Shown here: positions 9,718-13,671 of the stretch, piece after piece
Layout: each line of letters starts with the position of its first letter
Position numbering within the stretch: position 1 is the first letter of the stretch
DNA from: a virus
IMG/VR virus record: IMGVR_UViG_3300003319_000251
Location: 1 to 21,441 of that record
Strand: one strand, 5' to 3'
Length of the DNA stretch: 21,441 bases
Notes under the pieces: model-generated
The model's database searches: none
Seen by the model: the letters and a program-made list of their open reading frames with translations, nothing else
What the model was told of the DNA's origin: nothing
Position numbers and translations under genes: made by a program

Positions 9718-9978
9718 ATGAAGTTTGGACCACAAGCCCTGCTGGCGAATCAGGCGGCGCCCACTAACGGCGCCGCCATCACGCCATCCGACACCGTTGA
9801 CCTTCCCAACGCCGCCACCAAGGGAATTTGGGTGGGAGGCACTGGAGCCATCAAGGTGGACATGCTGGACTCTGGCACCGTGACGTTCAACGCCGTGCCA
9901 GTAGGCTTGCTTCGCATTCAGGTCAAGCGTGTTTGGTCCACCGGAACAACCGCCACGAACTTATTGGCGCTTTATTAG
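9718..9978 (+). CDS. Head spike base-like protein (RcGTA Rcc01079 type)
   Basis: This 86-residue beta-rich protein has the layout I associate with the head spike base of the Rhodobacter capsulatus gene transfer agent and many phage relatives. It shows a TPSDTVDLPNAATKGIWVGG segment, a central strand ending VTFNAVPVG, and a C-terminal VWSTGTTATNLLALY block (Thr-Gly-Thr, then an aliphatic end). In that particle the base sits on the capsid and holds a spike fibre. The ATG follows a GAGGAG-type site with a normal gap. The similarity is by memory of the family pattern and should be checked by profile search. If right, one of the neighbouring beta-rich genes probably encodes the attached fibre. Confidence 0.6.
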   Translation: MKFGPQALLANQAAPTNGAAITPSDTVDLPNAATKGIWVGGTGAIKVDMLDSGTVTFNAVPVGLLRIQVKRVWSTGTTATNLLALY

Positions 9979-9992
9979 TGATAAGGAGCGAC

Positions 9993-10562
9993 ATGGAGAC
10001 TCTTCAAAGGCCTTCCGGCAACGTCATAGTTCAGCGGGACTTGGCGCTCAGCATTCGTCAGCTCTTTCAGGACGCCCGCTTAGAAAGACAGGCGCGGGAG
10101 CACTTTGAGCGCACCGGACAACGCACCATCATGGGCGGCGCCGCTGGAGCGTGGACGTTCACCAACACCGGTCGCACCTCACTTTTGAACGGCACTTTCG
10201 ACATTGACTCCGACTCCTGGAAGATGGCGCTGTTTTTGAGCACCTCCAACATCGGGGCCTCGTCAACCACTTACGCTGGCCTGACGAACGAGCACTCAAA
10301 TGCCAATGGATACACCACCGGTGGCATCGCTGTCACTTTGACGCTCGCTGGCACCACCACGGTCACGGTGGACATTTCAAGCGACCCGGTCTGGACGGCC
10401 AGCGGAGGTTCAATTACGGCCAGGTTCGCGGTCATTTATGAGGTGAGTGGAAACGTGCTGTGCTATTGCCTTTTGGACTCCACTCCCGCTGATGTGACCA
10501 CCACTGACGGAAACACCTTCACGGTTCAGATAAACGCCTCCGGCGTGTTCACCCTGACCTAA
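9993..10562 (+). CDS. Putative virion structural protein (beta-rich)
   Basis: This protein of 189 residues starts at the ATG directly after AAGGAG (9983-9988). A longer reading upstream in the same frame would lie inside the previous gene and lacks a ribosome site. An N-terminal helical segment (QRDLALSIRQLFQDARLERQ) is followed by a beta domain. The domain has features common in phage structural proteins: WKMALFLSTSN, LTNEHSNANGYTTGG, a Thr/Val strand pair ending DPVWTASGG, then FAVIYEV and CYCLLDSTPADVTTTDGNTF near the C-terminus. The helix may anchor it to the capsid or spike base encoded just upstream (15 bases away), with the beta domain facing out. That makes it a candidate spike or fibre partner. 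Confidence 0.65.
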   Translation: METLQRPSGNVIVQRDLALSIRQLFQDARLERQAREHFERTGQRTIMGGAAGAWTFTNTGRTSLLNGTFDIDSDSWKMALFLSTSNIGASSTTYAGLTNEHSNANGYTTGGIAVTLTLAGTTTVTVDISSDPVWTASGGSITARFAVIYEVSGNVLCYCLLDSTPADVTTTDGNTFTVQINASGVFTLT

Positions 10563-10585: not shown

Positions 10586-10909
10586 ATGAGAACAGCGGCG
10601 ATGGCCGAAATGATCAAGCTCGCGGAAGGGGACACCACTCCCTTCAACAGTTTGGTTCGAGAGTCGATTGAAGACGGAATGGTGATCGGGTCAGTTCTGA
10701 AGGAGAAGTTGGGAGCCGCTGGATACTCAGTGGAGACCAAGCCTGGAGAAAAGCACGGCTTCTTCGTGGACATCAAAAAGGACGGCAACTTGGTCGGCTT
10801 TGCCTTTGCCCACTCGGAGAGTGAGGCTGTAAAACAGGCGGTGTTGGCGGAGATGAGACAAGCGGGGTCCGTCACGATAGAGATCACTGAGGACGTTGCC
10901 ACTTCATGA
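10586..10909 (+). CDS. Hypothetical protein, alpha/beta
   Basis: This 107-residue protein follows an AAGGAG site. The N-terminal half is helical (AEMIKLAEG, SIEDGMVIGSVLKEKLGAAG). The second half reads as strand-strand-helix (YSVETKP, GFFVDIKKDGNLVGFAFA, then SESEAVKQAVLAEMRQAG), giving a small alpha/beta fold. Its stop overlaps the next start (ATGA). It is unlike the beta-rich virion proteins around it, so it may be an assembly factor or a non-structural protein. No motif identifies a function. Confidence 0.6.
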   Translation: MRTAAMAEMIKLAEGDTTPFNSLVRESIEDGMVIGSVLKEKLGAAGYSVETKPGEKHGFFVDIKKDGNLVGFAFAHSESEAVKQAVLAEMRQAGSVTIEITEDVATS

Positions 10910-11139
10910 GCTCTCAGCTTCAAATACAGGTGACCAGGGAGCAGTTGCCTGATAGGTACAAGGAGATACTTCAACAAAATCCTCTCTTGGCCAGAACAGA
11001 GGTGGAGACCAAGCTGATTGGATGGACCGATGAAGAGGTGCGCACGCTTCAGCTGCTTTTGGCCTGCGCCAGCAACGCCAGCCTGACTCAGCGACTTTTA
11101 GAGTTGGAGAGGTCACTGGGTGCGTCAAAAGTAGCGTGA
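10906..11139 (+). CDS. Small hypothetical helical protein
   Basis: This 77-residue, mainly helical protein overlaps its upstream neighbour by ATGA, which suggests coupled translation of the pair. The N-terminus reads LQIQVTREQLPDRYKEILQQNP, and the C-terminal part (EEVRTLQLLLACASNASLTQRLLELERSLG) has heptad-like leucines and could form a short coiled coil. It ends 70 bases before the start of the large repeat protein. It could be a chaperone or adaptor for that fibre-like protein, by analogy with small chaperones next to phage fibre genes, but this is a guess from position. Confidence 0.5.
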   Translation: MSSQLQIQVTREQLPDRYKEILQQNPLLARTEVETKLIGWTDEEVRTLQLLLACASNASLTQRLLELERSLGASKVA

Positions 11140-11188: not shown

Positions 11189-11209
11189 CGTTTAGTAAAG
11201 GGAGACTGA

Positions 11210-13318
11210 TTGAGTTTAACTGGCACAAATCGCGGATCTGGCTCCACCAACACCGCTGGTCAGAACACTTTGGTGATCAGTCCCAATGCCAATTTGTCAG
11301 TTGGGTCACTGATCATTCTCGCGATAGCCTACGACAACTCTGGTACCGCCGGGGCCGACCCATATTCGGACACCACTGACAATGCCTCCGGGGTGACCAA
11401 CACTTGGACCTCTCGTCAGAACCCTCTCAATGATCCGGGAAACGCCAGTGCTGGACACTGCTTGCGTATCATCACCTGCCGATTGCGCAGTGCGGTTTTG
11501 ACCAGCAACTCCATCACCATTTCCTTTGGTGGAAGGACCACTGTGGCGCGATCGTGGACAATCACTGAGATCACCGCGGCCAACGGGTTTGGAGCGGTGT
11601 TCATTGCTGGAGGCTCCACCACGGGTTCATCCACCACTCCAAGCATTACCTCGGGATCAATCACCAGTGGGGACCTGATATTCGCTGCCATGGGCGCTGA
11701 GGGCAACGCCGCCATCACTGCGGACTCGGACACTTCCAACGGCAGCTGGTCCACTCAACAAACATCCGGTGTTGGCACCACTACTGGTGGATCTGAGGTG
11801 GCGTCTCAGTTTAAGGTCGTGACTGGCACCGCCACTCAAACGTACAACTTGACTATCACATCTGCTGACTGGTGCATCGCCTGGATTCAAGTGAGAGAGG
11901 TGGCGGACACCACAGTTACCCCGGGAGCCCTCTCTTTGGCCACCATGGCTTGGTCTCCGGTTTTGAGAAAGGCGGTGATTCCCCCGGTTAAGGCGTTGGC
12001 CACCAGCGCTTTTGCTCCAAAGCTGGCGACCGCGGTGATACCTCCAAAGCTGTCGCTCAACACCTCAGCTTTCGCCCCTATGTTGCCGAGGAAAGTGGTG
12101 CCCAATGTCAACGCTTTTATGACAAACTCGTTTGCTCCCACGGTGCAGGTCGCTTCCTCTATCGTTGTAACCCCTGGCGTACTAAGCATGTCCTTGACTC
12201 GGTTTGCTCCGGTGTTGGCGACCAAAACGACTCCCGGGGTCAAATCATTGAGCCTTACGGTGTTCTCACCAGAGCTCGCGTCAGCAGTTATTCCATCCAA
12301 GTTGTCCTTATCATTGGCGGGGTTCACTGTCGCGGCGTTGACCCCGGTGAAGTCGTTACCAGGAACTCGGCCATTGTCTTTAAGCACGCTGGCACCATCC
12401 ACAAAAGTTGGATTGATTTCTGTTCCGGTGACCCTGTCCATGTCGCTGAGCGTGTTTGCACCTTTGCTTCGATCAGCCATCATCGTACCCGTGAAGGCGC
12501 TTTCCATTAACACCTTTGCGCCCCCGCTGCGCAATTCCATTGTTACTTCAGTGGGAGCTCTGTCTTTGTCGGTGTTTTCACCTTCAGCGCTGACCCCGGT
12601 TCAGGTTTCTCCTCCTCAGCGCTCACTCACCATAACAGCGCTTGTTCCCAAACTACTCAACGCGACGATACCATCGACTAGCTCACTCAGCGTCACGGGT
12701 TTTGCTCCAGCGTTGCCGGCCTCAGTCACTCCAATAACTGGGGCACTGGTGACCACTGGATTTTCTCCCACGGTGGATAACGGAGGGGGATCTCCCAGCC
12801 CACCGACGACTAATCTGAGTTTGACTTCACACGCGCCATCGGCGCACATCGATAGTCACGTCACTCCACCGGCCGGCTCTTTAACGCTGACGCCTTTTGC
12901 TCCAAAGCTCTCATTTTCTTTGGCGATTGGTTTTGCAAGCCTTACCATCACCGGCCTGCAACCCGTGATGCGTCAGGACATGACAGTGCGGCCGGGCTTG
13001 TCATCTCTGAGTCTTATTGGATTTCAAGCGGTGTTGCGCGCTGGCATTACGGTGTCGACTTCCCCGCTCACTTTGCAGATGTTTCGCCCAGTCTTAAACA
13101 GTAATGTGACAGTTCCCTTTGTATCCCTGAGCCTTACTTTTTATGTGCCAACAATCATTCCGAATGGTGAACAGGCCCCCATCACCATCCCGGCTCCTGT
13201 TGGAAAAAGTGTTTCAACGTCCAGCTCTTTAAGTGAAGCCGGCAGAACGTCTAGCTCTTTAAGCGCTGCCGGGACATTCAGTGCTTTAACTAGTGATGGG
13301 AAAACGCAGCGAGGTTGA
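11210..13318 (+). CDS. Large repeat-containing virion or fibre protein
   Basis: This 702-residue protein starts at TTG, five bases after GGAG (11201-11204). Residues 1-230 look like a globular beta-sandwich (strands such as GSLIILAIAYD, SITISFGG, YNLTITS). Residues about 235-650 are some 20 imperfect repeats of about 20 residues, with the pattern S/A-L-S/T-L-x-x-x-F-A/S-P-x-L, each separated by a V-x-P-type turn; this suggests a beta-solenoid or stacked beta-hairpin shaft. Residues 669-698 are a Ser-rich ten-residue tandem repeat (SSSLSEAG, SSSLSAAG). The protein lacks long helices, cysteines are nearly absent after residue 230, and no hydrolase motif is seen. Position between head-surface genes and the head-tail adaptor favours a capsid or neck fibre; a tail-fibre role is less likely this far upstream of the tail genes. 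Confidence 0.8.
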   Translation: MSLTGTNRGSGSTNTAGQNTLVISPNANLSVGSLIILAIAYDNSGTAGADPYSDTTDNASGVTNTWTSRQNPLNDPGNASAGHCLRIITCRLRSAVLTSNSITISFGGRTTVARSWTITEITAANGFGAVFIAGGSTTGSSTTPSITSGSITSGDLIFAAMGAEGNAAITADSDTSNGSWSTQQTSGVGTTTGGSEVASQFKVVTGTATQTYNLTITSADWCIAWIQVREVADTTVTPGALSLATMAWSPVLRKAVIPPVKALATSAFAPKLATAVIPPKLSLNTSAFAPMLPRKVVPNVNAFMTNSFAPTVQVASSIVVTPGVLSMSLTRFAPVLATKTTPGVKSLSLTVFSPELASAVIPSKLSLSLAGFTVAALTPVKSLPGTRPLSLSTLAPSTKVGLISVPVTLSMSLSVFAPLLRSAIIVPVKALSINTFAPPLRNSIVTSVGALSLSVFSPSALTPVQVSPPQRSLTITALVPKLLNATIPSTSSLSVTGFAPALPASVTPITGALVTTGFSPTVDNGGGSPSPPTTNLSLTSHAPSAHIDSHVTPPAGSLTLTPFAPKLSFSLAIGFASLTITGLQPVMRQDMTVRPGLSSLSLIGFQAVLRAGITVSTSPLTLQMFRPVLNSNVTVPFVSLSLTFYVPTIIPNGEQAPITIPAPVGKSVSTSSSLSEAGRTSSSLSAAGTFSALTSDGKTQRG
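11912..13159 (+). repeat. About 20 coding repeats of ~60-72 bases (FAP repeat)
   Basis: The repeats are seen at protein level. Cores include LSLNTSAFAPML (from residue 281), LSMSLTRFAPVL (325), LSMSLSVFAPLL (409), SLSVTGFAPAL (492), SLTLTPFAPKL (557) and SLSLTFYVPTI (639). Spacing is mostly 20-24 residues, averaging about 21 over 19 intervals. The DNA of the copies has diverged, so the array is old rather than a recent tandem expansion, and the later copies lose the FAP core first (FQAVL, FRPVL). Confidence 0.85.
13216..13275 (+). repeat. Tandem 30-base repeat in the repeat-protein C-terminus
   Basis: Two adjacent 30-base units (13216-13245 and 13246-13275) share the run AGCTCTTTAAG and most other positions. 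A third, degenerate unit follows (FSALTSDGK). They encode TSSSLSEAGR then TSSSLSAAGT. High nucleotide similarity suggests a more recent duplication than the main FAP repeats. Confidence 0.75.
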
Positions 13319-13323
13319 CTACG

Positions 13324-13671
13324 ATGACCATTGATTTTTTTATCACCAAGGGTAACAGGCTTCCTTCTATACAGGATAGCTTGAAAGACGCTCAGGGGGC
13401 GCCTCTCGATTTGAGTGGTCCGGCCGTCACGGGGGTTACCTTCTCGATGAGGGACTTCGCCACTGACACTCTTCAAATAAATGAAGCCGCCGCGGTCATA
13501 GTTGCTCCCTCCACCAGCGGAATAGTTCGGTACGACTGGTCGGTGGATGACGCTGATTTGGAGGCTGGCTTTTATCGGGCACGGTGGACCGTTCAGTACC
13601 AGGGTGGTAAATCTTTGGACATTCCAAATGATGGACACATCACTGTTAAGATAAGTTCACCACTTGCGTGA
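13324..13671 (+). CDS. BppU-like Ig-fold phage protein
   Basis: This protein of 115 residues has the pattern typical of the N-terminal domain of BppU-type baseplate upper proteins and of small stand-alone relatives in phage head-neck regions. It reads FFITKGNRLPSIQDSLKDAQGAPLDLSG, a VTFSMRD strand, then GIVRYDWSVDDADLEAGFYRARWTVQYQGGK and a final strand DGHITVKIS. It is probably a small beta-sandwich on the virion. I chose the ATG, nine bases after GAGG (13311-13314); the in-frame TTG at 13315 directly abuts that site. It follows the repeat protein by five bases, so the two are probably co-translated and may act together. Confidence 0.7.
   Translation: MTIDFFITKGNRLPSIQDSLKDAQGAPLDLSGPAVTGVTFSMRDFATDTLQINEAAAVIVAPSTSGIVRYDWSVDDADLEAGFYRARWTVQYQGGKSLDIPNDGHITVKISSPLA

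Follow-up and report, generated by a model that had tools for sequence, protein, structure and literature searches.

To our knowledge, the head filaments and capsid fibres that have been seen in phage micrographs are mostly without an assigned protein. The closest described candidate is gp76 of Caulobacter phage phiCbK, a 2,799-aa protein with a lectin-like domain whose gene lies among the head genes, just after the capsid genes and directly after gp75. This protein was proposed by the authors of the genome as the most probable head-filament protein, and was undetected in virions (PMC3556154). A second described system is found in mycobacteriophages Douge and Claus, in which BppU, a two-domain protein of the virion surface, attaches to mycobacterial glycans by means of a carbohydrate-binding module (PMC13033339, PMC13252515). 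For phage Omega, virion mass spectrometry lists gp40, gp43 and gp44 (PMC3706429).

The window analysed here (the whole 21,441-nucleotide stretch of viral DNA) contains a gene, at 11210..13318 on the plus strand, encoding a 702-aa protein with a long array of repeats anchored on F-A-P (FAP array). The phiCbK gp75-gp76 pair resembles this locus in that a phrog_644 gene (gp75, with 43.6 bits versus 8.7 for the best of 500 shuffles) is followed immediately, within the head-gene region, by the gene of a long surface protein with repeats; the window likewise presents a phrog_644 gene upstream of its array gene and a location among head genes. The two differ in their repeats. Those of gp76 are Gly-rich, of about 24 residues and of the form GAIGTIVVTPP, whereas the window array contains 21 Gly in 435 residues and lacks, as judged by composition and Pfam, the phiCbK-type trait of Gly-rich repeats with a concanavalin-like domain. 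The C-terminal repeats of gp76 scored 21.0 bits against the FAP repeats (shuffles at most 12.7), but hhalign failed to support the match, and the likeness is one in kind.

Related repeats were found in mycobacteriophages. The minor tail proteins MooMoo gp20, Jabbawokkie gp28, Courthouse gp38 (repeat array E 3e-10) and prophiGD17-2 gp100 combine related repeats with a beta domain and are encoded beside a phrog_644 gene. In contrast to the window protein, their order is reversed, with N-terminal repeats and a C-terminal beta domain, their repeats are mostly fewer, and their genes lie at the end of the tail operon. No match was returned for MooMoo gp20 against PDB sequences. BppU of Douge and Claus offers a functional parallel only, its N-terminal domain being a compact Ig-like ring domain with no repeat array, and Pfam searches detected no BppU_N domain in the window array protein. 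The linkage of FAP arrays to a phrog_644 gene is what is new here, and no description of such a two-gene module was found in the searched literature.

The array protein and the FAP-repeat family

The array gene opens with a TTG start codon preceded by a ribosome-binding site (GGGAG at 11200-11204, five bases before the TTG), and the N-termini of its homologues align to the same residue. The open frame encodes an N-terminal beta domain (11210..11914, residues 1-235) that is a swappable module, an array of FAP units (11915..13165) and a Ser-rich C-terminal tail (13166..13318), all on the plus strand. A reading of the DNA letters and their translations (hereafter the sequence-only reading) had proposed a beta domain of some 230 residues, some 20 repeats and a Ser-rich tail, and this description held, with a domain of about 235 residues, exactly 20 units and the tail in place.

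The units span residues 236-652 and follow the consensus V-T-P-x-x-x-S-L-S-L-T-x-F-A-P-x-L-x-x-x, with F anchors at residues 248, 268, 288, 308, 332, 352, 372, 394, 416 and 436 (units 1-10) and 456, 478, 498, 518, 541, 563, 583, 605, 625 and 645 (units 11-20). In two units the anchor is degenerate, reading FTV at 372 and FQA at 605. Neighbouring units are 20 residues apart except where 2, 3 or 4 residues are inserted, in every case at one fixed turn. Compared with 500 shuffles, the autocorrelation of the protein gives z = 12.3 at lag 20, and there are additional peaks at lags 40, 42, 62 and 64. The units share a mean identity of 30% and no tandem repeat was found over the array at the DNA level, which argues for an old array, not a recent duplication. 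At the DNA level, 13216-13272 comprises 1.9 copies of a 30-bp repeat, which encodes a 10-residue repeat in the tail. Array proteins often finish in this way, with a second repeat that is shorter (about 10 residues) and has a very different composition (window 13166-13318; L008, L066, L085 and L098).

Searches of the window protein against Pfam, PHROGs, NCBIfam and PDB sequences gave no match at curated or significant score, and array fragments returned nothing beyond scattered weak matches to curated families. The beta-flower family (PF21786) did not match the window protein in Pfam at E < 1; among the scanned relatives L132 alone matches it, over part of its array (E 6e-11). PDB searches with the protein, an alignment of the N-terminal domain and the array profile yielded nothing credible, and tblastn searches of named phages with the window protein and a consensus array also returned nothing, in a program whose low-complexity filter may mask such arrays. 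Relatives were sought in IMG/VR with a DNA pattern that required three FAP codons spaced as in the repeats, followed by translation and an HMM test, which kept true arrays at no fewer than 24 of at least 213 loci; many other loci were discarded as Pro-rich, Arg-rich or out-of-frame repeats.

A family HMM from which the window's own units had been left out scored the window protein at 171.8 bits (E 7.6e-53). Because the E-values of this short-repeat HMM lack a composition correction, controls were added, and both the reversed window protein and the best of 100 shuffles scored 13.8 bits. At least 79 distinct array ORFs were collected, with arrays ranging from a few to about 31 units. The statement in the sequence-only reading that other phage proteins have similar repeats was borne out, and the repeat count in related phages that it suggested as a check gave the range above. 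On sequence grounds, the window protein is a member of a widespread, unnamed family of FAP-repeat arrays. In L115:4115-6226, L049 and L113, globular domains of lectin-like appearance seem, by eye, to be inserted within the arrays.

Linkage of FAP arrays to phrog_644

The phrog_644 protein of the window (9975..10562, plus strand; phrog_644 E 7.4e-28, with the domain starting at about 10140) is encoded by the third gene upstream of the array gene, on the same strand and 648 bases away, within the 3 kb limit (<3 kb) used to define the module. Two small genes lie between them on the same plus strand. The first (10586..10909) has a similar 103-aa gene in the same place in L076, as seen in a side-by-side reading, and the second (10906..11139) gave no significant PHROG or Pfam match. 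The window phrog_644 protein is 78-87% identical to most phrog_644 neighbours of other FAP arrays, and 62-68% identical to the mycobacteriophage proteins (three tested).

Among the matches listed, a phrog_644 gene was located upstream and on the same strand in 17 of 24 FAP loci and in none of 189 other scan loci. Of the seven FAP loci that showed no phrog_644 gene, L066 extends for about 1 kb upstream and the other six for less than 200 bases. The ascertainment bias of a scan that starts from FAP arrays was addressed by a reverse search starting from phrog_644 alone. A FAP array was found nearby in 74 of 91 phrog_644 loci and in 1 of 26 control loci fetched via other genes (p = 3e-13), with the qualification that some contigs are common to both searches and the two tests are not fully independent. 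FAP-like arrays are also apparent by eye in the phrog_644 loci L304, L306 and L332. FAP-array genes hence travel with a phrog_644 gene.

A search with the mycobacteriophage phrog_644 protein identified 267 phage records, including 30 of Caulobacter phages, phiCbK among them, and in genome contigs the pair was found in Mycolicibacterium houstonense and Mycobacterium aquaticum, as well as in Nitrospiraceae and Calditrichia MAGs. Matches of phrog_644 to antibodies in the PDB were at chance level and were set aside. Downstream of the pair, genes of HNH families turn up repeatedly, and genes that look endonuclease-like by eye adjoin the phrog_644 gene or the array gene in L109:5856-6353 and L122:10299-10925. 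These neighbours are a possible clue to the mobility of the pair.

Gene settings and the site on the virion

Upstream of the array gene, the window presents terL, portal, protease-like and capsid-like genes, and downstream of it genes for a head-tail adaptor, Neck1, terminator and tape measure, in agreement with the head-neck setting that had been claimed for it. The basis of the capsid and protease calls is gene position together with a capsid-like relative (33% identity) in L003, with no PHROG hit behind them; L003 itself has no array and was dropped from the synteny comparison as too distant. For a small ORF of the head region (9718-9978), located among head-surface genes, the match is phrog_12296 (E 3.7e-18), a family annotated as tail fiber protein. 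Directly downstream of the array, a plus-strand gene (13324..13671) encodes a protein of about 115 aa that is Ig/BppU_N-like on a local profile, and L066, L076 and L087 have similar genes after their arrays. The matches of its relatives to BppU_N are weak (E 0.007 and 0.034, below the Pfam cut-off), and the BppU_N label was rejected as too weakly grounded to count as evidence.

In other metagenomic phages, the neighbours of the pair are for the most part genes for terminase, portal, protease, capsid and neck proteins, and in some cases for tape measures. In Brevundimonas phage Bambus and Roseobacter phage CRP-901, the gene next after the phrog_644 partner is a lectin-like or 'tail fiber' gene. 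Taken with the phiCbK arrangement, the reading that we favour, with a probability of roughly two in three, is that the array protein is a virion-surface adhesion fibre that, paired with the phrog_644 protein as a two-gene module, is most likely carried on the head or neck of the window phage and contacts glycans. In this proposal, the N-terminal carbohydrate-binding-like beta domain would be displayed on a shaft of 20 FAP units, which would stack into a beta-solenoid or similar beta shaft and carry the binding domain away from the particle. Contact of the fibre with glycans of the host or the environment would be an initial, reversible step, and the phrog_644 protein most likely docks or caps the fibre, or aids its assembly. 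A glycan ligand is suggested by analogy with lectin-like partners and with the BppU modules of Douge and Claus.

The best-surviving alternative, which we consider doubtful and yet worth serious attention, is that the protein belongs to the tail, as a fibre or a tail-tip accessory, and that its gene is placed in the head-neck part of a late operon only by chance. In mycobacteriophages the related pair is found within the minor tail genes; in Jabbawokkie, MooMoo, prophiGD17-2, Hannaconda and Courthouse it closes the tail operon, with the lysin genes next. Gordonia phage Gibbles likewise has a related pair within its minor tail genes, followed closely by the lysis genes. Alteromonas phage R9Y2 encodes a more loosely similar repeat protein after its tail fibre gene, and in L234, L236 and L237 the N-terminal domain is joined to parts that look tail-hub-like by eye. 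In addition, L132:5236-9468 encodes, in one frame, a FAP array with a Gly-rich N-terminus and a T4 gp15 tail-sheath stabiliser (Pfam E 3e-56); the window protein shares the array with this fusion and differs in being devoid of the stabiliser domain. Against a tail location, the module is encoded among head genes in the phiCbK group and at the majority of metagenomic FAP loci. Given that the same module is found elsewhere in other phages, gene position alone is no proof of a site on the virion. The capsid or neck location put forward by the sequence-only reading hence stays plausible, on the basis of the metagenomic flanks and of synteny with phiCbK gp76, whereas its argument from gene position is weakened. 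The C-terminal location of the known virion domain of L132 suggests that, in an adhesion fibre of this type, the Ser-rich C-terminus would probably be the virion end; in the mycobacteriophage proteins the two parts are arranged the other way round.

More tentatively, and at somewhat less than even odds, phrog_644 and a repeat-array fibre may constitute a general transferable adhesion cassette, mounted on capsid vertex, neck, sheath or tail tip, with phrog_644 as the constant docking partner; the head filament of phiCbK and numerous minor tail proteins of mycobacteriophages would then be versions of it. Adhesion fibres of phages are already known; the module would be more than a further instance if it underlay both head filaments of the phiCbK type and the fibres encoded in tail operons. 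If the cassette is carried on heads in some phages and on tails in others, adhesion devices would be exchangeable between parts of the virion. Hundreds of phages, phiCbK and many mycobacteriophages that can be cultured among them, have putative repeat-array fibres marked by phrog_644, which provides a sequence handle that makes the identity of fibre builders directly testable in laboratory strains.

The predicted shaft and the N-terminal domain

In a full-length AlphaFold model, the N-terminal domain formed beta-strands with pLDDT of about 60-80, and the repeats were poorly modelled (pLDDT 40-55). A six-repeat model based on 60 aligned fragments produced a stacked solenoid (pLDDT 70.2, pTM 0.56), with each unit contributing one strand of 7-9 residues and one short strand. 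The structure prediction suggested earlier thus gave a regular stack for six repeats and strands for the N-terminal domain, without extending this confidence to the full-length array, and the two strands foreseen per repeat were recovered in unequal form. The six-repeat model resembles right-handed beta-helices, such as the CBA120 TSP1 tailspike (2.8 A over 124 residues, Z 6.7), with other low-rmsd matches to a bactofilin (2.8 A over 90 residues) and an ice-binding protein (3.2 A over 110). Foldseek searches with this model returned nothing significant, the best E-values being 1.2 in the PDB and 0.14 in a viral library. A parallel beta-solenoid is hence a likely, if unproven, fold for the FAP repeats. 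Coils in beta-solenoids rise by about 4.8 A, and 20 coils would yield a shaft near 10 nm if the solenoid model is right. The rigid beta shaft proposed by the sequence-only reading agrees with this model as regards the beta fold, at moderate confidence, and its rigidity is only suggested.

Adenovirus-type beta-spirals are built from repeats of 15-20 residues with alternating hydrophobics and a Pro/Gly turn. The FAP repeats fit this pattern and the array is poorly modelled in the full-length monomer, so that the shaft could instead be a homotrimeric beta-spiral of the adenovirus-fibre type. We consider this unlikely in place of a monomeric solenoid, as a monomer with a 60-row alignment gives a stacked solenoid at pLDDT 70 and the array profile finds no fibre shaft among PDB sequences.

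Searches with the N-terminal domain gave no significant match to a carbohydrate-binding family, and a weak jelly-roll-like structural similarity (Z 6.6). In the full-length structure search the low-confidence repeats aligned to unrelated solenoids, and only the weak jelly-roll-like matches of the N-terminal domain were used. The domain has 25 relatives; L079/L232, L002 and L222-L246 are among the loci related through it. It recurs with FAP arrays in L079/L232 and L248, stands alone in L002 as a 245-aa ORF with 50% identity, and precedes other repeats of similar length in L226, L229, L243 and others. A homology of the domain to the beta domains of L056 and L109 found no support in hhalign, and the C-terminal domains of the mycobacteriophage proteins were compared with it in an alignment by eye only. 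Conversely, FAP arrays are joined to other N-termini, with a lectin-like Laminin_G_3-like domain common to the array proteins of L076 and L098. Judging from these alignments, the N-terminal parts of FAP-array proteins are exchangeable.

A beta-rich protein built of repeats and joined to a globular domain, with relatives that carry a lectin-like domain (Laminin_G_3 in L076), supports the idea of a fibre advanced in the sequence-only reading. That the protein is instead a capsid decoration or neck stabiliser without receptor binding, with repeats serving as a spacer under weak selection, is improbable: its gene adjoins other small head-surface genes, repeat identity is low (30%) and arrays differ in length, with anything between a few and about 31 units, but the exchange of N-terminal domains, Laminin_G_3 included, is the pattern expected of an adhesin, and the candidate counterpart in phiCbK belongs to a flagellum-binding filament.

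A few genes before the stand-alone copy of the N-terminal domain, L002:1826-6052 encodes a phage protein of 1,408 aa that consists largely of GSSGSSGT repeats. In L226, L229-L231, L235, L240 and L243, the N-terminal domain family precedes several different arrays of 18-26-residue repeats, as if one adhesin head had been combined with many shaft types.
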